Shown here: positions 1,978 through 63,238 of the stretch, piece by piece
Layout of the letters: each line of letters begins with the position of its first letter
Numbering within the stretch: position 1 is the first letter of the stretch
DNA from: Sorangium aterium
GTDB taxonomy: Bacteria > Myxococcota_A > Polyangia > Polyangiales > Polyangiaceae
Length of the DNA: 64,000 nt
Assembly (NCBI RefSeq): GCF_028368935.1
Contig: NZ_JAQNDK010000005.1
Coordinates: forward strand, 1,304,501 to 1,368,500
Direction of reading: 5' to 3'
Notes under the pieces: model-generated
Database searches by the model: none
Told to the model about the DNA's origin: nothing
Seen by the model: only the letters and a program-made list of their open reading frames with translations
Made by a program: the position numbers and the translations under genes

Positions 1978-4112
1978 GGCGCGTGGATGAGCCGCGGGGG
2001 CAGGCGATCCGGAGCGGGTCGCCGAGGAGGGGCGCGAAGGGCCTTGCGGGGGCGGCGTCGCTCGCGGCGCTCTTCTCGGCGGGGCCCGCGTCCGGGCAGG
2101 CGCCGCCTCTGTCGACCGCGACGGAGCTCGTCGTCGACGTGGCGCCCGTGCTCGGGACGAGCGGCGGGATACCCTGGGGCTGGAACCAGGTCGTCGTGCG
2201 CATCCAGAACAACGGCGGCAGGGCGGCCAGGGGCGAGGTCGAGGTCGAGTCGAAGCGCTACTCCGATGAGCGCGTCTTCGTCGCGTCGGCGCCGTACGCC
2301 GTCGGGGCGGGCGCGTCGGTCGACGTGCGCGTGCCGGTGCACGTGTCGCCTTTCGGCGACGTGCAGGTGCGGGCGCTCGATGAGGGCGGAGCACAGGTGT
2401 CGTCGCAGGGGCTCTCGTCGACCTCGCAACACGCGGTGGTGCTCTTCGACGTCAGCGAGAGGTCGCTCCTCCGCGGGGGCCTCCACGACGCGCCGATCGC
2501 GCCGCTGTACATATCGACCAGCCGCGCGCCCGGGGGGACGCCGAGCCCTGTCCTCTGGGTCGGGCAGCCTCGCTTCGACAGCGCGACCGGCGACCCGCTG
2601 CTGCCCGACCGGGCGGCCCTGTACAACGCGGCGGACGCCGTGCTCATGCGCACCGACACGCTGTCCAGGCTGAGCGGCTCCGAGCTCGAGGCGCTCGCCG
2701 GCTTCGTCCTCTCCGGCGGCACGCTGGCGCTGTCCGTCGCCCGCCCCGAGGATCTGCGGCACCCGACGCTCGCGGCGTTCGTCGGCGGTGAGGTCGCGAG
2801 GGCGCCCATCGCGCCGCCCACCCTCGCGGAGATCGCGCCGCCCGGCGGCTCCAGCGGCTTTGGCAAGCAGGGCAACGTGCTCCTGCCCGCGCCGAGCGCG
2901 ACCCCCGCGGTGGCCGAGTCGCTCTGCGGCTGGTCGGGCGGCAACCTGCGCGGGAGCCCGTATGGCAGCTCGGCGTTCTACGGCCTCGGCGAGGTGCACC
3001 TGCTGGCGTTCGACCCAACGCGCTCGCCCGCGGCCAGCGACCCGTGGGTGAAGATCCGTGTGGCCGATCTCGCTCGCCGCGCTTACGACCGTCGCTCCAC
3101 GGTCGCCTTCCGCCCGGGGGAGGATGCGATGGGCGTCGACCTCGATCCGGTGCGGCGGGAGCTCGATCCGAACGAGAGCTCCCGCTGGGCGATCGGGGTC
3201 TCCGCGCTGCTGCTCTGCATTTACGCGGTGCTCGCCGGTCCGATCAATTTCTCGCGCGCCGCGCGGCAGGGGAGGCCGCTCCGCGCGCTCTGGTACCTGC
3301 CGGTGCTCTCTGCGGTCACGTTCGCGGTGATCGTCGGCGTGGGCCTGTTTGCGAAGGGGGTGCGCGGCCGGGCGCGGCACCTCACGTTGATCGAGGCGGG
3401 GGCCGGCATGACGAAGGGCGCGGTGCGCCGGTTCCGGGGCTTCTTCGTCGCCAGCGCGGAGGAGCTCACGGTCCGCACGACCGACCCGAGCGGCGTGATC
3501 AGCACGGCGGTGGTCGCCGAGCTCTCCGAGCGGCGCGACCGGCTGCTCGTGGACCGTGACGGCGCCCGGCTGACGAAGGTCGCGGCGCTCCCCTGGCAGA
3601 CGGTGATCGTGCGCGAGGACGGGGCCGCGTCGCTCGGGGACGGCATCGCGATCGTCGCCGATCCGAGCGGCGACATCGTCGTGAGCAACCGGAGCGGCCG
3701 CGACCTCCGAGGCGGCGTCCTGTGGCTACCGGAGGGCGCGGCCCGCTACTTCGCCCGCATCGGCGACGGGGAGAGGGTCTCGTCGCGCGCGGGGGTTGAT
3801 CTCGCGGCGCGGAGCGAGGGGCAGGGCTGGCTCTCGCACGCCGGCTCCGCGCGGCGGGTCGGCGGCATGGACGTCCACGACCTCGGCGGGAGGCTGCTGA
3901 CGCCGCTCCTCGAGCCCGACGTCCCGGGGCTCGGCGCCGCGTGGCTGGCCATCGAGGAGGCGGCCGGCGGATCGGTCGACTGGTTCCCGGCCGGCGTGCC
4001 CGTGCTGTTCGGCCAGCTCGACGGCGGCGAGGGGCGCGCGAGCGACTCCGGGTTGCGAATCGACAGCGACCGCGTGCTCGTGCGGGTCGTCGGCTACGGA
4101 GGCCGGCCGTGA
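1974..4112 (+). CDS. Large exported/membrane protein coupled to MoxR and an ABC transporter
   Basis: A 712-residue protein starting at an ATG that overlaps the MoxR stop. It has a signal-peptide-like N-terminus (about residues 20-42), a long extracytoplasmic beta-rich region and two adjacent transmembrane helices at about 404-425 and 438-460. Between the helices is an AGPINF...GRPLRALW cytoplasmic turn. A second beta-rich region follows to the C-terminus. The layout recalls the large accessory membrane proteins that sit beside ABC-2 exporters and MoxR ATPases (GldG/DUF4350-like in arrangement), but I cannot name the family. Four-nucleotide overlaps on both sides argue for a stoichiometric complex with MoxR and the transporter. 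An in-frame extension upstream of 1974 would overlap moxR and is rejected. Confidence 0.85.
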   Translation: MRRVDEPRGQAIRSGSPRRGAKGLAGAASLAALFSAGPASGQAPPLSTATELVVDVAPVLGTSGGIPWGWNQVVVRIQNNGGRAARGEVEVESKRYSDERVFVASAPYAVGAGASVDVRVPVHVSPFGDVQVRALDEGGAQVSSQGLSSTSQHAVVLFDVSERSLLRGGLHDAPIAPLYISTSRAPGGTPSPVLWVGQPRFDSATGDPLLPDRAALYNAADAVLMRTDTLSRLSGSELEALAGFVLSGGTLALSVARPEDLRHPTLAAFVGGEVARAPIAPPTLAEIAPPGGSSGFGKQGNVLLPAPSATPAVAESLCGWSGGNLRGSPYGSSAFYGLGEVHLLAFDPTRSPAASDPWVKIRVADLARRAYDRRSTVAFRPGEDAMGVDLDPVRRELDPNESSRWAIGVSALLLCIYAVLAGPINFSRAARQGRPLRALWYLPVLSAVTFAVIVGVGLFAKGVRGRARHLTLIEAGAGMTKGAVRRFRGFFVASAEELTVRTTDPSGVISTAVVAELSERRDRLLVDRDGARLTKVAALPWQTVIVREDGAASLGDGIAIVADPSGDIVVSNRSGRDLRGGVLWLPEGAARYFARIGDGERVSSRAGVDLAARSEGQGWLSHAGSARRVGGMDVHDLGGRLLTPLLEPDVPGLGAAWLAIEEAAGGSVDWFPAGVPVLFGQLDGGEGRASDSGLRIDSDRVLVRVVGYGGRP

Positions 4113-5353
4113 GCGCGGCGCTCGGCGGCGCTCCGCTCTCCACGGCCGCGGCGCAGATCGAGCGGCTTCGGCCGACGATCCGCGTCCGGCACCTCTCGCA
4201 CCGCTTCGGCGCGCTCGACGTGCTGAAGGACGTCACCTTCGACGTGGGCCCCGGCGAGATCTTCGGCTTCATCGGGCCGAACGGCGCGGGCAAGACGACG
4301 ACGATCCGGGTCATGGCGACCTTGCTCGAGCCCATGGCAGGGCGGGTCGAGATCGACGGCGTCGACGTGACGATCGACCCCGCGGCTGTCCGTCGCAGCA
4401 TCGGGTACATGCCGGATCACGCCGGCGTCTACGACAGGATCACGGTGCGCGAGTACCTCGAGTTCTTCGCGGACGCCTTCCGGGTGCCGTCGCTCGACGT
4501 GGTCGACGCCGTCCTGGAGCTGACCGACCTCGGCAAGATCCAGGACCGGATCGTCGCCACGATGTCCAAGGGGATGAAGCAGCGCCTCCAGCTCGGGAGG
4601 ATCCTGCTGCACGATCCGAAGGTCCTTATCCTGGACGAGCCGGCCAGCGATCTCGATCCGCGCGCGCGCATCGAGATCCGCGATCTCTTGCTCGAGCTCC
4701 GGAGCCTGGGGAAGACGATCTTCCTCTCGTCGCACATCCTCACGGAGCTCTCCGACGTGTGCACGTCGATCGGCATCCTCGAGAAGGGCCGCCTCGTCGT
4801 CGCCGGGCCGATCGGGGAGATCGCCGCGCGCCTCGAGGCGGTGCGCGCGGCGCAGGCGCACGGGCACGCGCCGCCGCGCCACGCCGTCGTGCCGGGCGCG
4901 TACGGGGCGCAGGCGCACGGGCATGCGCCGCCGCGGCACGGACCCGGGGCGGCCACGCCCGACGGCGCGCCGACGGATCCGGCAGCCGTCGATCGCTCGC
5001 AGGCCGACGGTCCGCCGCCCGGATACGGCCCGCACCCGCCGCACGCCGCTGGGCTGGCGAGCGCCGGGCAGGCGGCCTATCCGGCGCTCTCGCAGATCTC
5101 CCGGCGCAAGGTCAAGGTGCGGGTCCTCGGCGATCCCGAGGCAGCGGCCTTCCTGGTCAGGGGCGGGCCGGGGATCACCGACGTCGACATCGTCGCCGGA
5201 GCCGTTCACGTCGGCTACGTGGGCACCGACGTGAAGATCGCCGAGATCGTCCAGCACCTCGTGCGCAGCGGCGTCGGCGTGATCGGCGTCGAGCCGGAGC
5301 GCAATGAGCTCGAGAGGATCTTCCTGGAGGTCACGCAAGGAGAGGTGCAGTGA
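4109..5353 (+). CDS. ABC transporter ATP-binding protein with His/Pro-rich linker
   Basis: A 414-residue ABC ATPase of the ABC-2 exporter (CcmA/NatA/GldA-like) type. Walker A GPNGAGKT lies near residues 57-64, a degenerate signature SKGMKQR near 152, Walker B LILDEP near 172 and the H-loop SSHIL near 210. After the nucleotide-binding domain there is an 80-residue linker (about 247-327) rich in His, Pro and Ala that contains a duplicated AQAHGHAPPRH block. A C-terminal alpha/beta domain of about 85 residues follows. The start is a GTG that overlaps the previous stop, and its end overlaps the permease start. It should energise the adjacent permease; the substrate is unknown. Confidence 0.92.
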   Translation: MSAALGGAPLSTAAAQIERLRPTIRVRHLSHRFGALDVLKDVTFDVGPGEIFGFIGPNGAGKTTTIRVMATLLEPMAGRVEIDGVDVTIDPAAVRRSIGYMPDHAGVYDRITVREYLEFFADAFRVPSLDVVDAVLELTDLGKIQDRIVATMSKGMKQRLQLGRILLHDPKVLILDEPASDLDPRARIEIRDLLLELRSLGKTIFLSSHILTELSDVCTSIGILEKGRLVVAGPIGEIAARLEAVRAAQAHGHAPPRHAVVPGAYGAQAHGHAPPRHGPGAATPDGAPTDPAAVDRSQADGPPPGYGPHPPHAAGLASAGQAAYPALSQISRRKVKVRVLGDPEAAAFLVRGGPGITDVDIVAGAVHVGYVGTDVKIAEIVQHLVRSGVGVIGVEPERNELERIFLEVTQGEVQ

Positions 5354-7336: not shown

Positions 7337-8587
7337 ATGGCCTTGCCTTCGCACGAAGACTGCCGATGCGCGGCGCCTGAGCTGAGCGATACCTTGCTGG
7401 ATGGAACGCCGTACCGGCCCGTGCGTCGGCTGGGGCGAGGGGGCATGGGCGAGGTGATCGAGGCGGCGCACGTGGGCCTCGACAAGCCGGTGGTGGTGAA
7501 GCTCTTGCACCGCGACCTGAACCGCGAGCCGCGGCTCGTGGAGCGGATGCGCGTCGAGGCGCAGTCGCTGGCGCGGCTCGCCCACCCGAACCTGGTGACC
7601 GTCACCGATTTCGGGCGGACCGCCGAGGGGAGGACGTTCCTCGTCATGGAGCGGCTCTATGGCCGGACGATGCGCGAGGAGCTCGCGGCGCGCGGCGCGC
7701 TGCCGGCGACGGAGGCGCTCGATCTCGTGACGCAGACGCTGGCGGGCCTCGCCGCGGCGCACGGCGCGGGCATCGTCCACCGCGACGTGAAGCTCGAGAA
7801 CCTCTTCGTGTGCGACGCGGACGCGCAGGGGCGGCGCGTGGTGAAGGTGCTCGATTTCGGGATCGCCAAGGTGGTCGCTCCGCGCGGCGATGGGCGCGCG
7901 CCGGCGCCGTCGCTCTATCAGACGGAGGAGGGGGTGCTCGTCGGTACGCCGCGCTATCTCTCGCCCGAGCAGGCTTGCGGGCTCGCCGTCGATGCGCGCA
8001 CCGACGTGTATGCGGCCGGCGTGGTGCTCTACACGCTGGTCGCCGGTCGCGATCCGTTCGAGCATATGAGGCGCGTCCACGAGCTCGTGCGCGCCCACGC
8101 GAGCGAGGTCCCGGCGCCGCCGTCCAGCCATGCGCCACGACTGGTGCCGCCGGAGCTCGACCGCGCGATCATGAGGGCGCTGGAGAAGCGTCCGGAGCTC
8201 CGTTTCCCGGACGCTGCGGCGTTCGCGGCGGAGCTGTCGCGCATCGCCGCGGGGCTATCGAGAGGGGTCGATGGTGGGTCGGTCGTACCATCGGGGTCGT
8301 ACTGGCAGCGCACGGCGCCGCTTACGCTGCCGCCGGTCCGGGCGCCGGTGCTCCCACCGACGTTGAGCGCGACCGTGAAGGCGTTCGGCCTGACGGCGCT
8401 GGACATGGCTGCGCAGCCCACCCCAGGAGCTGCGCAGCAGCGCGCCTCGGAGGCGCACAGAAGCAGGGCGCGCCGCGCGCGACGGCCCGCGCGCCCCGAG
8501 GCCAGCTGGGCGGCCATGGGATTGCTGGTGGTGAGCGTGGTGCTCTTCGGCTTCACCCTGGCGTTGCTGGTGAGCTTCGTGGGCTGA
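7337..8587 (+). CDS. Ser/Thr protein kinase, tail-anchored
   Basis: A 416-residue eukaryote-like (PknB-type) protein kinase. Its glycine-rich loop is LGRGGMGEV, the catalytic lysine is in VVVKLLH near residue 54, the HRDVKLEN catalytic loop is near 148, the DFG motif near 172 and GTPRYLSPEQ follows. The catalytic residues are intact. After the kinase domain comes a 100-residue Pro/Ala-rich linker, then one hydrophobic helix at the extreme C-terminus (about 394-415). The protein is therefore anchored by its tail and has no extracellular sensor domain. The ATG at 7337 follows a GAGG element. It stands alone between two non-coding regions, so the substrate cannot be inferred. Confidence 0.92.
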   Translation: MALPSHEDCRCAAPELSDTLLDGTPYRPVRRLGRGGMGEVIEAAHVGLDKPVVVKLLHRDLNREPRLVERMRVEAQSLARLAHPNLVTVTDFGRTAEGRTFLVMERLYGRTMREELAARGALPATEALDLVTQTLAGLAAAHGAGIVHRDVKLENLFVCDADAQGRRVVKVLDFGIAKVVAPRGDGRAPAPSLYQTEEGVLVGTPRYLSPEQACGLAVDARTDVYAAGVVLYTLVAGRDPFEHMRRVHELVRAHASEVPAPPSSHAPRLVPPELDRAIMRALEKRPELRFPDAAAFAAELSRIAAGLSRGVDGGSVVPSGSYWQRTAPLTLPPVRAPVLPPTLSATVKAFGLTALDMAAQPTPGAAQQRASEAHRSRARRARRPARPEASWAAMGLLVVSVVLFGFTLALLVSFVG

Positions 8588-8691
8588 CAGGCCGGTACGG
8601 CGTCGTCGCCGCGGATGCCAGGAACGTCACCCGGCGCGACGAACCCGCTACGATGCGGGCTGCGGAATGGGAGCGCTGAGGCTGAGAGGGC

Positions 8692-8920
8692 CAACCTGGG
8701 TCGGAAGGGGCAACCTCGGAGGGGTCAACCTCGGCGTGGTGGAAGGCTCAACCTGGGGGTGGGCCACGAGGCAAGGCAACTCAACCTGGGTGGGCCAAGG
8801 GCCAGGGTGTGGGCCACGAGGCAACTCAACCTGGGTGAGGGCCAGAGGGCCAAGGGCCAAGCTCAACCTGGGTGCGGGGCCAGGCCGGGAGGCAGGAGAG
8901 AGGCTCAACCTGGGTGCGGG
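8692..8920. repeat. Interspersed repeat array A, core CAACCTGGG
   Basis: Eight copies of a 9-bp core occur in about 220 bp, at 8692, 8711, 8726, 8749, 8782, 8827, 8864 and 8906. Six read CAACCTGGG and two read CAACCTCGG. Most are preceded by CT or T and followed by TG(C/A/G)GGG(C). Spacing varies (19, 15, 23, 33, 45, 37 and 42 bp), and spacers contain secondary repeats such as GTGGGCCACGAGGCAA. The core is not palindromic. It is not a CRISPR, because repeats are too short and spacers too irregular. Confidence 0.75.
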
Positions 8921-13840: not shown

Positions 13841-14353
13841 TCACGGGACGAAGCACCATTTCAAGTGGAATGACGCGAACTCGAGGCGCGCTGGGACAAC
13901 GTCCTGGGCAGCGCCGAGCAAGTTCAGGCCACAGTCAGCGAAAGAGAACCTGCATTCGTGCGAGTCCTCGGACGATGTCCGGAGCGTCGCACGGCAAGAG
14001 CCATAGAAAAGCGCATCGTCGACGTACATTCGCATGTTCACGACAGCAGCGTCGCCGCCCTTGCGCTCGCTGCCGAGCAGATGGAGATCGAGGTAGTAGA
14101 AGCCCCTCCTGTCCTTCGAGTGATCCACCAGCTCCAGATTGGTTTCGCCATTGAGGCGGGAGCAGTCAACGTCCCAGCTGTCGTCGAATCCGGGGACAGG
14201 CAGCTTGCCGCTATCCCCCGTGTCAAGCACCAAGCTCTCCCCGTTCACGGTCATGACCGCCATGCCGTACGCTTCAGGAATTTCCGGGCTAGTAGAGCAC
14301 CCGAACGGCGAGAGCGACAGCACGAGGCCTTGGGCGAGGAGGGGTCGGTGCAT
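13841..14353 (-). CDS. Small putative lipoprotein, unknown function
   Basis: A 170-residue protein starting at an ATG preceded by GGAGAA on the minus strand. It has a short hydrophobic leader with lipobox-like SPFGC near residue 19, so it is probably a lipoprotein. The rest has several cysteines (DVDCSRLN, YGSCRATL, HECRF, DCGLN) that could form disulfides in the periplasm. I do not recognise the family. The frame stays open upstream through repeat array B, but that part is repeat-encoded and is rejected. Confidence 0.62.
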   Translation of the reverse strand: MHRPLLAQGLVLSLSPFGCSTSPEIPEAYGMAVMTVNGESLVLDTGDSGKLPVPGFDDSWDVDCSRLNGETNLELVDHSKDRRGFYYLDLHLLGSERKGGDAAVVNMRMYVDDALFYGSCRATLRTSSEDSHECRFSFADCGLNLLGAAQDVVPARLEFASFHLKWCFVP

Positions 14354-14780
14354 GGGAGTTCTCCAGCAGCATGGCGGGCGAGAGCATCGCACGAGGTCGA
14401 CAACCATGAACGCGCGCAATGTGGTTGATCCATGCGCCGTGCCAGATGTCAACCGGAAACGGAGGCCCCTGTTGGGCCCGTGCCGGGCTGACTGCCGGGC
14501 TGACTGCCGGGCTGACCGACGTTGCCGTTGACTGTCGACCTGACCGACGTTCCCGGCCTGCCGGCCCGGCCGGTCTGACCGACGTTGCCGTTGACTGTCG
14601 ACCTGACCGACGTTGCCTTGGTGGCTTGGTGAGACCCGATACGTGTTGTCTACGGGGCGGTCCCAGGCATAGGTCATGGCGGGCGCCAGCGGAAAACAGC
14701 AGTCGCCAGGGTCTCGAAAAATTAAGTGTGCGAAATCATTGGCCGCGAGCCCCGGCACGCGTTTGGCATAGTCGGCAGCC
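14354..14780. other. Non-coding spacer holding repeat array B
   Basis: This is a 427-bp gap between the divergent lipoprotein and transposase genes. Its middle third is repeat array B. On its right side, a GAGACCC at about 14632 and a GGGTCTC at about 14709 form a distant 7-bp inverted repeat, and a short A-rich stretch (CGAAAAATTAAG) follows. No coding sequence is supported here. Confidence 0.5.
14481..14617. repeat. Repeat array B, core TGACCGACGTTGCC
   Basis: The array starts with three perfect tandem copies of the 12-mer TGCCGGGCTGAC (14481-14516). It continues with four copies of TGACCGACGTTGCC at 14513, 14541 (TTCC variant), 14576 and 14604. A 39-bp segment is duplicated exactly (14513-14551 and 14576-14614, 63 bp apart). 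The same 12-mer GACCGACGTTGC occurs five times in array C at 16989-17128. The array lies 160 bp upstream of the transposase gene. Confidence 0.75.
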
Positions 14781-15701
14781 ATGAGCCAGCCTCGCGCTAT
14801 TGTTGCAGGTGCCACCTATCTCCTCACACGACGCGCGTTGCGGCGACACCTCCTCTTCAGGCCAGATGCCGCGATCACTCAGCTGATCATCTATGCACTT
14901 GCGGTTTCGGCCAGGCGCTACGGCATTCGCCTGCATGCGTTGTGCGCCATGTCCACGCACCTGCACATCGTCGTCACTGACGTCGAAGGCGTACTTCCGC
15001 GATTCCTGCAGCTGTTTCATCGTCTCGTGGCGCTGGGGACCAAGGTGCTCCGAACCTGGGAGGGGCCGGTCTGGGGCCACGAAGCGACCAGCGTTGTTCG
15101 CCTCTTGACGCGGGCGGCCGTGGTGGAAAAGATTTCATATTCACTGGCGAACCCGGTAGAGGCGGGGCTGGTGCGACGTGCGAAGGAATGGCCTGGAGCG
15201 AAGGTGCTCGTCAACGAAATCGGCCGTGGCGAGCTGCGGGCGAGGCGTCCTGACGTCTACTTTGCTTCGAGCAACCCCGCATGGCCTGAGCACGCCGCCA
15301 TTGCGATCTCGCTTCCGCCAGATGTGGCGGATGGTGACGCGGACGCCTTTCGGCGCGATGTGGCGGCGGAGCTCGAGCGGAAGGAAGCCGAGGCGCGCGC
15401 CGCGGTTCATCGAAATGGCCGCGGTTTCCTCGGCCCCGAGCGCGCATGCACGGTGTCGCCCGACGCTCGCGCGACGAGCCTCGAGGCGCCTCGCGGCCTC
15501 AATCCAACGTTTGCGGTGGGGAGAGGGTATTCAGACGCACGAAGAACCGCGGTTGCCGCCGTCCGCGCATTTCGCGCGGCATACCGTGACGCGCTCCAAC
15601 AATGGCGTGCAGGGCTGCGCAGCGTGGTGTTTCCCGCAGAAACGTGGTGGATGCGCGTGTTCCACGGCGTGGCCGTGAACGATGATGCGCTCGTATCGTG
15701 A
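14781..15701 (+). CDS. REP-associated tyrosine transposase (Y1/HUH, IS200-like)
   Basis: A 306-residue protein of the Y1_Tnp superfamily. The metal-binding HUH motif is HLH within MSTHLHIVV near residues 56-64. The catalytic tyrosine is expected in ISYSLANPVEAGLV near residue 119, a signature of RAYTs. The N-terminal TYLLTRRALRRHLLFRP also fits the family. RAYTs are single-copy, domesticated relatives of IS200/IS605 transposases that are often linked to short palindromic repeats. No IS ends or flanking target repeats were found, so this is probably a resident gene rather than an active IS. The last 150 residues are longer than in most family members. Array B lies immediately upstream. Confidence 0.85.
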   Translation: MSQPRAIVAGATYLLTRRALRRHLLFRPDAAITQLIIYALAVSARRYGIRLHALCAMSTHLHIVVTDVEGVLPRFLQLFHRLVALGTKVLRTWEGPVWGHEATSVVRLLTRAAVVEKISYSLANPVEAGLVRRAKEWPGAKVLVNEIGRGELRARRPDVYFASSNPAWPEHAAIAISLPPDVADGDADAFRRDVAAELERKEAEARAAVHRNGRGFLGPERACTVSPDARATSLEAPRGLNPTFAVGRGYSDARRTAVAAVRAFRAAYRDALQQWRAGLRSVVFPAETWWMRVFHGVAVNDDALVS

Positions 15702-15880
15702 CAGGAACGATCGGCACGTCGACGCGGCATCTGGGCTGCTGATCGAGGGCGAATGAGCGGCGGACGCCCTCCGTTCGCGTGCACGATCGTGTAATTTTGT
15801 GTGAAACTAGACGTCAGCGGCGCGGCGATCGCGTGAGCCAGCCTGGTGGCCGAGGAAGCGCGGGCGGTTCGAGCGCGTCG

Positions 15881-16663
15881 CTACAGCGGTAGAGGGAGCT
15901 CGATATACGGCTCGGTGATCCGGCCGACGGCGATATCGCGCACCTGCGTCCCATAGTAGGTCGATCCCGATTGCGTGCTCCAGGCATGTCCCACGATTGT
16001 TCCATTGCTGTTGGCATAGAGGCGCATGACACCCCTGCCAACACCCGGGTGCCAGGAGCCGTCCGCGTTGCGCCGGGTGTCGGTTGTCCCGTGGCCCGTG
16101 GTGCTCGAATCGAGGACGGGGAGAGTATACTGGATTGTCCCCGTGACGAACGGATAGGTCGCCACGCGTGGCACCGCAGCGCCTGCCGCGATGGCGACGT
16201 GCCCGCTCGCCGTGCTCCCCGCCGGATACTCGATCGCGACGATATCGCCGGCCTCGATCTCGCTCACGGTCATGATCTGCTCGAAGCCGACCTCCTCGAT
16301 GATCCTGTCGTGGTACAGTGCGGCGTTCGGGCTCATGCTGCCGAACCATGTGTTGATGTCGTAGACGGACAGCTGATAGGCCTGCTTGAGGACGTTCGTG
16401 ACGAACGACGCGCACAGGCTGCGGCTCCGATACTCCGTGGCTCCTCCTACGCCGGCCCAATAAACATAGGTCGTGCTGCTACCATATTCATTGTTTACCG
16501 GTGCGATGTGGGTCACGAGCGTGTCGGCCCAGTAGAAATGGCTTGGCTTCTCGGCCGTCTGGCCCTGAGCCGGGCGCGGCGCGAGCAGGCTCAACCCCGC
16601 CAGAACGGCGGCCGGGAGCGCGCGAACAGCGGCTCTCGAGCTCATGCGCTTCAATGCATTCAT
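15881..16663 (-). CDS. Secreted NlpC/P60- or CHAP-like cysteine peptidase
   Basis: A 260-residue protein with a signal peptide (about residues 1-36, ending near RPAQGQTA). The mature part has a SLCASFVTNVLKQAY motif, with a probable nucleophile Cys near residue 83. Downstream is AGDIVAIEY and then SGHVAIAAG with a candidate His near 155. That Cys-then-GHVAI order is characteristic of the NlpC/P60 and CHAP papain-like folds, which cleave peptidoglycan peptides. I chose the ATG whose complement is at 16661-16663 because GGGAGGAAATC precedes it; a longer frame upstream has no signal peptide. It stands alone. A role in wall remodelling or antagonism is inferred only. Confidence 0.68.
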   Translation of the reverse strand: MNALKRMSSRAAVRALPAAVLAGLSLLAPRPAQGQTAEKPSHFYWADTLVTHIAPVNNEYGSSTTYVYWAGVGGATEYRSRSLCASFVTNVLKQAYQLSVYDINTWFGSMSPNAALYHDRIIEEVGFEQIMTVSEIEAGDIVAIEYPAGSTASGHVAIAAGAAVPRVATYPFVTGTIQYTLPVLDSSTTGHGTTDTRRNADGSWHPGVGRGVMRLYANSNGTIVGHAWSTQSGSTYYGTQVRDIAVGRITEPYIELPLPL

Positions 16664-17358
16664 GATTTCCTCCCGTGTGGAATCGATGGCCCCGCGTAGG
16701 TTGGTCACACCGGTGTCGGCCTCATCGCGGGCATCGCCGCGGAGCGCCGGCAAAGCGAAGTTGCGCACCAAGCCACCGAACATACGCCGAACGAGCGATC
16801 TCTTCAATCACCGGCGCGAAGGCGGCACACGGGTCGTGCGCGATCCTGCGCGGATAGTGTTCCCCTCATTTCCACAGGCTGTCTCCTCCGGGCGACCTCC
16901 GGGCACGTCTTCGTAGATCCGCGCGTCGACGCCCACCGCAGGGGCGGCGCGGCGGTCACGGGCGGTACGGCGAGGGCGCTGCCGTCGCGACCGACGTTGC
17001 GTCCGATGCGTCCGACGGCCGTCACGACCGACGTTGCGTCCGACCGACGGCCGTCATGACCGACGTTGCGTCCGACGGCGGCCGTCGCGACCGACGTTGC
17101 GCCCGGCGGCCGTAACGACCGACGTTGCGCCCGGCGTCGACAGGAGGGCGGCGATATCGTACGGATCGGCCGAACCCGGGCGCTCCGGGAGCGCGGTCGG
17201 CGAGGGCCCGAGGCGCCGGCGGAGCGCGCCACGAGAAGCACGCCCCCCGGCGGAGGCCCGCCCCGCCCGCGCCGCGTGGCGCGCGGGTCCACGCGGGTCG
17301 CCGGGGCCGAGTTCCGCCGTTTTGTTGACAGATCCGCGCAGTTCGATTGGATGGCCGC
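16664..17358. other. Long spacer with repeat array C
   Basis: This is a 695-bp gap between the divergent peptidase and methyltransferase genes. The left 320 bp show no gene. Array C occupies 16989-17128, and about 200 bp of extremely GC-rich sequence follow. A TTGACA hexamer lies at 17325-17330, just before the methyltransferase, but I see no matching -10. Open frames through the array on the minus strand are repeat-driven. Confidence 0.5.
16989..17128. repeat. Repeat array C, core GACCGACGTTGC
   Basis: Five exact copies of GACCGACGTTGC begin at 16989, 17026, 17058, 17089 and 17117 (spacing 37, 32, 31 and 28 bp). Each is followed by G. Between copies is a palindrome, GACGGCCGTC, at 17014-17023 and 17046-17055, and a related GACGGCGGCCGTC at 17074. 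The core is identical to that of array B, 2.4 kb away, so this is a dispersed repeat family rather than chance. Confidence 0.78.
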
Positions 17359-26532: not shown

Positions 26533-27924
26533 ATGGGTGCCGAGCCGAGCCAGGCGCTGCGCGACGGGCGCTACATGATCACGCGCGCCCTCGGCGAAGG
26601 GGCTCAGGGGCACACGCTCGAGGCGGTCGACAAGCGGCTCGGCAAGCTCGTCGCGATCAAGCGGTTCCAGATCCGCGGCGCCTCGAGCTGGAAGAGCGTG
26701 GAGCTCGCCGAGCGCGAGGCCCGGGTGCTCGCGTCGCTCTCGCACCCGAGCCTGCCGGCCTACCTCGATCATTTCGAGGAGGACGGAGCGCTCTTCCTGG
26801 TGATGGAGAAGATCGAGGGCGAGAGCCTGGGCGCGATGCGCCGTCGCAGCGCGGTGCTCGGGCGGGACGACATCCTCCGCTTCCTGAGGGACGCCTCCGG
26901 CGTGCTCGACTACCTGCACGGCCGCGCGCCCCCGGTCATCCACCGCGACATCAAGCCGAACAACGTGATCCGCCGGCCCGACGGCTCGTTCGCGATCGTC
27001 GACTTCGGCGCGGTCCGCGATCGCATGCGTCCCGAGGGCGGGAGCACCGTGGTCGGCACGTTCGGGTACATGGCGCCGGAGCAGTTCCAGGGCCGCGCGC
27101 TGCCCGCGTCGGACGTCTATGCCGTCGGCGCGACCGCGCTCTGCCTGCTCACCGGCGAGGAGCCGGAGAACCTGCCGCACCGAGGGCTCGCGATCGACGT
27201 GCCCGCTGCCCTCGGCGATCGCGCGGACCCGCGCCTCGTCCGGGCGCTCTCCGCGATGCTGGAGCCCGACCCGGACCGCCGCGCCGCGCGTATCGCGCCG
27301 CTCCTTCCGGGGCTCGAAGCGGGCGACGCGCCCCCCGAGCGCGCTCGCGAGCCTGCGGAGCGCGGGGCGCACAAGGAGGACAGGCGCGCGCACAAGGACG
27401 AGCGCAAGGAAGAGAAGCGCGCGCGCAAGGACGAGCGCAGGGAGGTGAGGCGCGCACGCAAGGAGGAGCGGCGCGCGCGCCGGCACGAGGGGCGCCCGTC
27501 GCTCGATCGCGGCCTGGTGGGCCTGCCGCTCGTGGCCGCGCTGTTCGGCCTCACCGTCGCGCGCATCGCCGTCGGCCTCGCGCTCGGGGTGATCGTCCCG
27601 ACGGTGCTGACGCTGCTGTCCCTGGTGTTCGGCCGCGTGCTGCGCGAGAAGGCCGCGCCGAACGTGCGCAGGGCCGGGCGGGTCGCCGACCTCGCGCTGC
27701 GCCGCGCCACCCGCGTCGTCCGCGGGCGCCCGGAGCCCGACGCCGCTGCCGAGCGCGGCCAGGACGAGGCGGCGCGCGTGCGCTTCGAGGAGCAGGAGGC
27801 CCCCGGTCGCTCGCGCATCCACGACGGCGACGTCGCGCTGGAGGAGGAGCTCGACGAGCTGGAGGCCGATGAGCACGGCCGCGCGCACGCCGGGTCGCGG
27901 CCGCCTCGCGCGGGGGAGCGCTGA
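26533..27924 (+). CDS. Ser/Thr protein kinase with charged linker and membrane hairpin
   Basis: A 463-residue protein with an N-terminal kinase domain: LGEGAQGHTLEAVD loop, VAIKRF lysine near residue 39, HRDIKPNNV near 136, VDFGAVRD near 155 and GTFGYMAPEQF near 178. Catalytic residues are complete. An unusually charged linker (about 275-320) follows, made of repeated HK(E/D)-R and RARK-type units. Two adjacent hydrophobic helices (about 329-367) come next, and the tail is acidic. The glycine loop lacks the usual second GxG spacing. ATG 26533 is chosen; a start at 26497 lacks support. The gene is divergent from slipin with 157 bp between them. Confidence 0.9.
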   Translation: MGAEPSQALRDGRYMITRALGEGAQGHTLEAVDKRLGKLVAIKRFQIRGASSWKSVELAEREARVLASLSHPSLPAYLDHFEEDGALFLVMEKIEGESLGAMRRRSAVLGRDDILRFLRDASGVLDYLHGRAPPVIHRDIKPNNVIRRPDGSFAIVDFGAVRDRMRPEGGSTVVGTFGYMAPEQFQGRALPASDVYAVGATALCLLTGEEPENLPHRGLAIDVPAALGDRADPRLVRALSAMLEPDPDRRAARIAPLLPGLEAGDAPPERAREPAERGAHKEDRRAHKDERKEEKRARKDERREVRRARKEERRARRHEGRPSLDRGLVGLPLVAALFGLTVARIAVGLALGVIVPTVLTLLSLVFGRVLREKAAPNVRRAGRVADLALRRATRVVRGRPEPDAAAERGQDEAARVRFEEQEAPGRSRIHDGDVALEEELDELEADEHGRAHAGSRPPRAGER

Positions 27925-62700: not shown

Positions 62701-63238
62701 CGTGAGCTCGCCTGCGTGGCAGGACGTCGGCGACGTCGCCGAGGCCTCGATCGGCGGGCTGCCGCTCCTCGACGGGGCGAAGTACTACGTCGGCGTGCGC
62801 GCGGTCTCTGCCGCCGGGCTCTCGCCGGACCGGGGGTCGGACGGCGTGATCGTGAGGGTGCCGCAGGGCCAGGGGGGAGGCGGCGGAGCCGGAGGCGCTG
62901 ACGGCGGTGGCGGGGCAGGGGGCGCCGGCGGCGGTGGCGGGGCAGGGGGCGCCGGCGGCGATGGCGGGGCAGGGGGCGCCGGCGGCGCAGGTCCCGGCGG
63001 AGCCGGCACGGCTGGATGGGACGACACGCTGCTCTACGGCCGTGGCTGCGTCTGCACCGAGGTGCCAGGGCAGCGCCCGGCCTCGATGGCGGCCGGCCTC
63101 GGCGGTGCCGCCTTGGCGCTCGTTGCCCTCGTCCGGGCCCGCGGGGCGGCGAGCGCGCCGCCGAGCCGCCGGACGACGCGCCGCCGGACCAAGGCACCTC
63201 GCGGGCGCTGGCCGCACGACGCTCGGCCGGCGCGTTAG
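59738..63238 (+). CDS. Large FG-GAP/VCBS surface protein with MYXO-CTERM-like tail
   Basis: A 1166-residue exported protein. The signal peptide (about residues 1-31) ends near SAFADW. At least nine Ca-binding-type loops of the D-x-(D/N)-x-DG-x-x-(D/E) pattern are spread along it (DVNQDGDIDLL, DLDGDGRIEIV, DFNGDGHLDLF, DWNGDGADDLL, DLDGDGALEVV, DLTGDGLGELV, DLDGDGARELV, DWNGDGAEDVA, DTDGDGHDDIL), giving a beta-propeller-like array. A fibronectin-III-like domain (about 970-1045) and a Gly-rich spacer follow. The end has GCVC, a transmembrane helix and an Arg cluster, as in MYXO-CTERM. ATG 59738 or 59756 is the start. Confidence 0.85.
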   Translation: MERSSFMARGAVASAVCSALLLEGASAFADWPSARHDAQRTGATSSTSNIVKPAPYWRAYLGGVLSTGRVLAGDVNQDGDIDLLFVSGGRVVLSDPLGFVRWSTPSLGLQTLHSFDDLDGDGRIEIVALSGAGAAVIDGSSGAILWREDASELGTLGAARLADFNGDGHLDLFLDECGCCAVRTDSPGVIYSFAGGFGAVERLPPPPRRTRCNATIDTVGDWNGDGADDLLVSSYDQLFLVSGTGEVFAKSASIGAHLGGAVCEAVTLGDPASPGQLALCFQNRVRSNQGAREVTLLAYRPDESPSLAVVWRKTLSPKDVGDARAPTRLAWDLDGDGALEVVASGKVGETWTTFVLDAATGAELAAIPDAIAQGAVPGDAGSEQWLVTSLEERVSAFRFSRAAGGSLERLWSLDGERVRTRLDWARSRRTNLGFSLVTPDLTGDGLGELVLESTSEPVALTAVDMRGGGASVAGVYAVESGSGVAALELPVATSPSWPRLVVSRADGFLTLLDASFEPSNLVREGRDVLPGMRVGGFYTGPGAYVNFGRAPLAARFSPEDATASVVVVDSRGDLLRIASDGASNVAPAKPAWRVKDAFGASIVPAEGSSPATLACFRRLHPLTDPVKYAVATLDANGRQASETPLEKPPVWDVLQGDLDGDGARELVAVTVDPSLHTDVIAIERSGGERWKHRIDASAGTQAVAIADWNGDGAEDVAVAINKAKVLSGRNGSTLGENPETLLYFMPILANVSGDHRLEMTLQGGYAPARALPNDLSAALWKGAEDIRPYPHGAIASCDGKTVLIEGSFMNPARLTFSVLEAAGGGRSSFIVLAGDGAFDAEAAAARVGAPMGQLGDVAISRNLTGRASAGPTALVGSTNGFLYAVDACSGRLVWSYAFGSPVGSPSLADTDGDGHDDILVSVADGYLYDMRHEILPAPELVWDVDPSRGDQGEDIDEIETRDTLHMRWSKVDGAASYQVTVVGGQGDYVSSPAWQDVGDVAEASIGGLPLLDGAKYYVGVRAVSAAGLSPDRGSDGVIVRVPQGQGGGGGAGGADGGGGAGGAGGGGGAGGAGGDGGAGGAGGAGPGGAGTAGWDDTLLYGRGCVCTEVPGQRPASMAAGLGGAALALVALVRARGAASAPPSRRTTRRRTKAPRGRWPHDARPAR

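Follow-up and report, generated by a model that had tools for sequence, protein, structure and literature searches.

The window locus and its RAYT-like gene

We analysed a 64-kb stretch of DNA from Sorangium aterium (the window; G000:C5:1304501-1368500 of the 13.47-Mb source genome, G000), which holds two intergenic repeat arrays, B and C, near a gene encoding a protein of the REP-associated tyrosine transposase (RAYT) type, REP being the repetitive extragenic palindrome. Both arrays contain the 12-mer GACCGACGTTGC. The three features are listed below by window position.

14481-14617, plus strand: array B, three copies of the 12-bp unit TGCCGGGCTGAC (14481-14516), followed by GACCGACGTTGC cores.
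14781-15701, plus strand: RAYT-like Y1/HUH protein of 306 aa, assigned from NCBIfam NF047646, alignment and fold.
16981-17136, plus strand: array C, five exact GACCGACGTTGC copies at 16989, 17026, 17058, 17089, and 17117.

The initial annotation held that the two arrays share the 12-mer and flank the RAYT locus. The repeat content was confirmed: array B has three exact copies starting at 14514, 14577, and 14605 and the one-base variant GACCGACGTTCC at 14542 (core spacing 28, 35, and 28), the five copies of array C are spaced by 37, 32, 31, and 28, and all lie on the same strand, with the arrays approximately 2.4 kb apart. The flanking arrangement held on one side only. Array B is situated directly upstream of the gene, in the interval that separates the RAYT start (14781) from that of a minus-strand gene (~14353), whereas array C is in the gap 16807-17347, 1.29 kb past the RAYT stop and beyond a separate minus-strand gene, in the same orientation as array B rather than inverted.

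The protein matched NCBIfam NF047646 (REP_Tyr_transpos) with an E value of 1.3e-12 and 47.9 bits, a score below the curated cut-off of 80, and gave no match in Pfam and PHROGs searches. H60-x-H62, Y120, and N124-P125 were invariant in an alignment across 16 relatives. In a profile search (E 0.00093), residues of the window RAYT aligned to the HMH and Y residues of 4er8, the E. coli RAYT on a REP hairpin. The AlphaFold model had a predicted local distance difference test (pLDDT) score of 91, and Foldseek placed 4er8 at rank 1 in PDB (E 7e-6, template modelling (TM) score 0.70 on the target), followed by the IS608 and ISDra2 transposases. The RAYT-type identity proposed for this enzyme was thus upheld by the invariant HxH and Y1 residues and by the nearest fold. 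A C-terminal extension of approximately 160 aa was outside the matched domain.

Exact GACCGACGTTGC occurred 10 times in the genome, against once for the reversed pattern, and eight of these copies were packed in 2.6 kb of the window. All 10 were within 2.2 kb (176-2153 bp) of one of six RAYT-like genes, the two outside the window lying beside two further RAYT paralogues at 0.57 and 2.15 kb. The bare count is weaker evidence: with two or fewer mismatches 19 copies were found in the window, a number reached by 12 of 100 shuffles, and the commonest 12-mer in 64-kb Markov sequences averaged 4.35 copies with a highest value of 8 (200 simulations). The evidence therefore consists of the clustering and the comparative results rather than of the count of eight. 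The 11-mer GACCGACGTTG, which is GACCGACGTTGC without its last C, occurred 17 times in G000 (control 3), 11 of them near RAYTs, and 5-14 times in each of the other five Sorangium genomes (control 1-4). For GACCGACGTTGC itself, 38 other genomes had 0-7 copies each (control 0-4), all but a few of them near background.

The word GACC-NNN-GTTG in Sorangium and other genomes

The 12-mer is a form of the frame GACC-NNN-GTTG with the centre GAC. The frame was counted in 700 bp upstream and 1500 bp downstream of RAYT genes, with a Markov expectation from 20 resamplings per locus. Sorangium genomes had 4-10 RAYT matches each, and 45 Sorangium loci were compared; a 46th match, an 84-base fragment in G003, was not counted, and the truncated L044 was kept in the counts and omitted from the tree. 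A set of 70 loci comprised 36 from Sorangium (12 used, the remainder being already included) and 34 from other genomes (26 used). L163, L166, L172, L185, and L187-L190 were left out as partial or without flank, and several of the 26 non-Sorangium loci have flanks shorter than the stretch searched.

The word was associated with RAYT genes and pointed toward them from both sides. Upstream of the 45 Sorangium genes there were 188 forward and 12 reverse words (expectation 1.5 and 0.5), and downstream 178 reverse and 22 forward words (expectation 1.3 and 0.8); only two words were inside the genes. A forward word was present upstream in 39 loci, in many of them as an array, and a reverse word downstream in 33. 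Both arms were found in 30 of the 45 Sorangium loci and in 8 of the 26 others; the window locus has the upstream arm and lacks the inverted downstream one. The repeat unit is a short asymmetric word in direct-repeat arrays, the longest of which has 25 exact words (32 tandem units by TRF) beside the RAYT L049.

At the 26 non-Sorangium loci, whose RAYTs are 37-70% identical, 17 forward and 3 reverse words were found upstream and 24 reverse and 1 forward downstream, where 0.3-0.5 were expected. These loci include Minicystis rosea, metagenome-assembled genomes (MAGs) of Byssovorax and Sandaracinus, and less well placed myxobacterial or deltaproteobacterial MAGs. As the inward polarity extends outside Sorangium, the arrangement is older than the genus. 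More distant RAYT relatives, present in many copies per genome, were represented by L012 and L029 (G026) and L016 (G016); the exact word was not found in their fetched 1.5-kb flanks, and these relatives may have other repeats.

The dispersal of the family was examined with GACCCAGGTTG, which also occurs in a third array of the window:

8688-8916, minus strand: third array of the same family in the CAG dialect, one GACCCAGGTTG and four CACCCAGGTTG on the minus strand, after the gene at 7337-8587.

This array is 5.9 kb from the RAYT, so that the window holds two dialects. The six Sorangium genomes, G000 to G005, had 101, 137, 28, 284, 258, and 121 GACCCAGGTTG copies, respectively (control 0-3), whereas 110 further genomes from the same family and order had 0-19 (control 0-8). 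Among the gene-searched genomes outside Sorangium, the highest counts were in G025 (19, control 1) and G034 (11, control 0), both with RAYT matches. Of 39 genomes, 20 gave no RAYT match at E 0.001, and in these GACCCAGGTTG occurred 0-7 times (reversed control 0-8), which is background. The initial annotation had named abundance of the repeat where the gene is missing as contrary to its proposal; for this common dialect, such abundance was not observed. The GTG form was also dispersed, with 14, 9, 3, 21, 16, and 18 copies in G000 to G005 (controls 0-3), and the GAG form had 6-27 copies in five RAYT-bearing genomes outside Sorangium (controls 0-3), the lowest count of 6 being near its control of 2.

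Within G000, distances to RAYTs were obtained for 100 of the 101 GACCCAGGTTG copies. A RAYT was no more than 2 kb away for nine of these and no more than 10 kb away for 25 (0.9 expected within 10 kb); the other 75 were more than 10 kb from any RAYT, indicating that most of the family is located elsewhere. The 100 copies fell into 43 clusters, of which 21 had at least two copies. Outside the gene calls, which covered 79% of the sequence, lay 57 of 98 copies; these genic fractions are rough, because the gene calls missed the RAYT gene itself. For most arrays a coding repeat was rejected, as 65 of 77 arrays of at least three copies were not frame-preserving; the other 12 were, and some of these may lie in genes. 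Arrays of 18-bp period in L078 (~3982-4072) and L085 (~4000-4168, with one 24-bp step) keep the reading frame and may have been taken into coding sequence.

The centre of the word was compared with a RAYT tree of 62 rows, in which eight of the 26 non-Sorangium loci were not included; where upstream centres were tied (L032, L047, and L121 among others), the centre encountered first gave the label. CAG or CGG versus other upstream centres required 3 changes over 49 labelled rows (shuffles: mean 13, minimum 9, none of 500 as low). With Sorangium rows alone, 2 changes over 39 rows were required (shuffles at least 3, mean 5.7), and the downstream centres required 6 over 43 rows (shuffles at least 8, mean 12.7). 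In the main Sorangium clade, 32 of 33 rows had CAG or CGG upstream and one had no word there. Three further dialect groups exist within Sorangium. One clade consists of the window RAYT with its orthologues from So ceGT47 and So0008-312; in the clade L126/L033/L053, L126 has CAC upstream, L033 and L053 have no forward upstream word, and L126 and L053 have GTG downstream.

Interpretation, rival explanations, and history of the locus

Taken together, these findings make it probable, in our judgement, that arrays B and C are REP-like repeats of a REPtron-like RAYT system, widespread in Sorangium and also present elsewhere in Myxococcota. The association with RAYTs, the inward polarity, the main split of the centre following the RAYT tree, and the dispersal in Sorangium were all observed directly. 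That RAYTs recognise and mobilise the repeats would be a reasonable but unproven extension. The RAYT would recognise one strand of the word as single-stranded DNA and nick it through Y120; repeated cleavage and rejoining, or re-replication, would copy the word and its spacer locally into arrays, and now and then such copying would place them at new sites. The GAC dialect would be the cognate form of the window RAYT lineage; array B would be its long-standing companion, and array C would have arisen recently in this genome by local copying. The initial annotation had suggested a new REP-like family mobilised by this enzyme, and this is partly supported: the repeats are tied to RAYTs by position, orientation, taxonomic range, and tree, whereas the 12-mer itself is a local dialect rather than a dispersed genome-wide family.

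Several observations weigh against this interpretation. Array C breaks the inward-polarity rule, since it is not the usual inverted downstream arm, and neither arm was found in 3 of the 45 Sorangium and 11 of the 26 other loci. The choice between CAG and CGG does not follow the tree (7 changes; shuffle mean 6.5), the two mixing freely, and the arms of one locus can differ, as in L037, L060, and L061 with GTG or GCG upstream and CAG downstream. The So0008-312 orthologue, L121, carries CAG and TAC centres and not GAC. Six of the 17 G000 GACCGACGTTG copies are away from RAYTs, two of these 15 bp apart, and a four-copy GACCGACGTTG array at G001:C1:13190106-13190185 is 20.7 kb from the nearest So ce26 RAYT. 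Folding was weak, with a mean z of -0.49 (standard error 0.11) on the forward strand and -0.28 (standard error 0.10) on the other (150 of 337 unique 31-mers), and GT[AG]G hairpins were rare beside RAYTs (11 in 45 loci versus 0-7 in five shuffles).

The tree association and its exceptions together indicate that the main split is real and the code is not strict. In G000, the distribution of GACCGACGTTGC and GACCGACGTTG indicates that the GAC dialect is centred on the window locus and not wholly confined there; the G001 array is an instance of this dialect in tandem away from a RAYT gene. The consensus of the CAG form is GACCCGACCCAGGTTG (227 unique sites), and a GT(A/G)G head was absent from this core consensus. 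A canonical GTAG REP was ruled out by the rarity of GT[AG]G hairpins at the 45 loci.

Because of the weak folding, the hairpin read by known RAYTs is not evident in the word. We tentatively consider a more specific form of the REP-like interpretation, a REP system without palindromic REPs. Here the HUH enzyme, perhaps via its long C-terminal extension, would read a linear word of 11-16 nt, the three-base centre would be a clade-specific recognition code, and the direct arrays would arise by repeated nicking and local re-replication rather than by hairpin movement. We regard this form as possible, though doubtful.

The history of the window locus was examined in the other five Sorangium genomes, where the homologous flank ends at window position 14465-14470, just before array B. 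A RAYT is present at this locus in G000, G003, and G005, and roughly 7-9 kb of other sequence takes its place in G001, G002, and G004. All five have array B, or what is left of it, at the corresponding position, including the three without a RAYT there, whose relics at the boundary are GACCGGCGTTG and GACCGACGTTG in G001, GATCCACGTTG and GACCCACGTTG in G002, and two GACCCACGCTG in G004. G002 also has two collinear RAYT-like scraps (E 3.0 and 0.19), which are only suggestive of a RAYT relic. The simplest reading of these comparisons would be an old RAYT with array B, lost in some lineages. A counterpart of array C was not found at the equivalent place in G001-G004 (the G005 contig was not matched that far), and array C is likely a young local copy.

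The RAYT gene itself appears in recent duplicates. L031 and L032 share only -218 to +1012 (98.1% over 1232 bp), and L046 and L047 only -125 to +966 (99.6% over 1092 bp); these two near-identical within-genome pairs indicate that a unit of approximately 1.1-1.2 kb duplicates mostly without arrays. In G000, the site lacking the L046 RAYT (L111) is a stretch of approximately 109 bp in which three exact reverse words face one degenerate forward copy with two changes. This single case fits either an insertion between facing words or a gene loss leaving a REPIN-like remnant. Such data speak for an alternative in which the arrays are targets or landing sites rather than substrates, and a mobile RAYT unit of ~1.1 kb inserts into or between pre-existing arrays. 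The idea that the G000 arrays are relics of lost RAYTs was rejected, and the same result also suits landing sites: a RAYT remnant (tblastn, E 0.001) was absent from 18 of 19 array regions. In the 19th (L074) the RAYT is intact, and L086 starts 300 bp after another RAYT. However, landing sites by themselves leave unexplained why the centres follow the RAYT clade and why an array as long as that at L049 is beside a RAYT, and we consider this alternative unlikely.

Flanking homology places L031/L047 and L032/L049 at equivalent places in G000 and G004, while L031 and L047 each have a near-identical second copy within the same genome; either gene conversion or repeated insertion at the same place would give this pattern. 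Furthermore, one neighbouring segment is found upstream of RAYTs in three genomes (the upstream regions of L152 and L043, and -1344 to -365 of L046). Its orientation relative to the gene in G003 and G005 is opposite to that in G004, hinting at rearrangement around these loci.

Elements between array and gene leave room for a second alternative, in which the words would serve a regulator as double-stranded operators or enhancers, for instance at a sigma54-like RAYT promoter. In 39 loci, 119-337 bp separate the start codon from the end of the nearest upstream word, which adjoins a conserved palindrome, TGGCGG...CCGCCA, in 35 of the 45 Sorangium loci (control stretch 1, downstream 0) and a GGCACG-N4/5-TTG box in 33 of them (no control set). 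These elements may control RAYT expression. The window promoter keeps the box and not the palindrome:

14754-14767, plus strand: sigma54-like box GGCACGCGTTTGGC (GG-N10-GC), before the RAYT gene.

The sigma54 label of GGCACGCGTTTGGC and of the GGCACG-type box is putative and is based on resemblance to the sigma54 consensus. As a dispersed repeat in its own right, the promoter palindrome TGGCGGCCGCCACC was rejected, with only 3-11 copies per Sorangium genome (control 0-2) and a looser form downstream of none of the 45 RAYTs. Regulator sites would not account for the reverse copies 39-772 bp past the stop in 33 loci, the 75 G000 copies far from any RAYT, or the irregular spacing of 15-94 bp within arrays, and this alternative is improbable.

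Finally, it is very hard to credit that the arrays are ordinary slippage minisatellites lying near RAYTs by accident: local homogenised units of 18, 20, 22, and 25 bp are such as slippage gives, but one core word is kept across arrays differing in unit length and spacer, and the polarity and tree association are left aside. A plain tandem-repeat artefact was largely refuted by the polarity, the tree association, and the Sorangium-wide dispersal versus controls.

The neighbouring genes are as follows.

13841-14353, minus strand: conserved neighbour gene, 170 aa (inferred start), no Pfam match.
15881-16807, minus strand: gene that separates array C from the RAYT, without a family match at E 0.001; its product is possibly secreted.

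Other tandem repeats in the window, at 62882-62991 (27-bp unit x3.9) and 27372-27470 (33-bp unit x3), are unrelated to the GACC-NNN-GTTG motif.

Comparison with known systems

The system was compared with published ones as described in excerpts of the cited papers; a myxobacterial description of these repeats was not found in the open-access literature among the matches listed. The results bear on how RAYTs spread and come to be paired with their repeats, and their significance extends beyond the two window arrays. The numerous RAYT matches per genome and the dialect groups in one genus provide natural swaps for a residue-to-base reading. If the arrays are enzyme products, they would also lend plasticity to the intergenic DNA of some of the largest bacterial genomes.

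The enzyme resembles IS200/IS605 in its fold and in that copies of the gene unit duplicate; unlike in IS200/IS605, the ends of the shared unit differ between the two recent duplicate pairs. The inward-facing copies around the gene, and the one roughly face-to-face set at the empty site L111, are like the REPINs and BIMEs described in the excerpt of PMC3116915. Unlike these, the G000 loci are direct arrays rather than alternating pairs, facing exact words 300 bp or less apart being found at none of 19 array loci.

For the HuH subclasses, the comparison was by description, with the excerpt of PMC6006769. Subclasses 2.1 and 2.3 have a long C-terminal domain, as does the window RAYT with its extension, and are reported there without REPs. 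Subclass 2.6 and class 3 have atypical repeats without GT[AG]G and with weaker structure, as in Sorangium. Class 3 repeats have a CnGA foot, and its proteins a Y----Q motif. The foot is resembled by CCGA at -2 to +1 of the CAG/CGG consensus (C 0.90 and 0.86; no control set) and by CTGA in array B, and array C does not fit. The protein motif differs, since Y120 is followed by N124-P125, as in 4er8.

In the excerpt of Nunvar 2010 (PMC2817692), every RAYT is described as lying between two inverted REPs that carry a GT(A/G)G head and a palindrome. Compared with the REPtrons of REP and RAYT (TnpAREP) in the excerpts of PMC2817692 and Corneloup 2021 (PMC8266576), the Sorangium repeats differ in having no GT(A/G)G head, a weak hairpin, a core of 11-16 nt, and tandem direct arrays, and the RAYTs differ in that each genome has several of them, recent duplicates included, and in their long C-terminal extension. 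On the other hand, both systems share a Y1/HUH enzyme of the 4er8 fold, a gene between inverted short repeats (here a trait of the family), dispersed repeats, and a repeat variant that co-varies with the enzyme (PMC2817692, PMC8266576). Thus, a polarity-conserved, dialect-bearing repeat family is attached to a RAYT lineage in Myxococcota by a strong association, and with the inward word around most RAYT relatives it looks like a new version of the REP/RAYT partnership.

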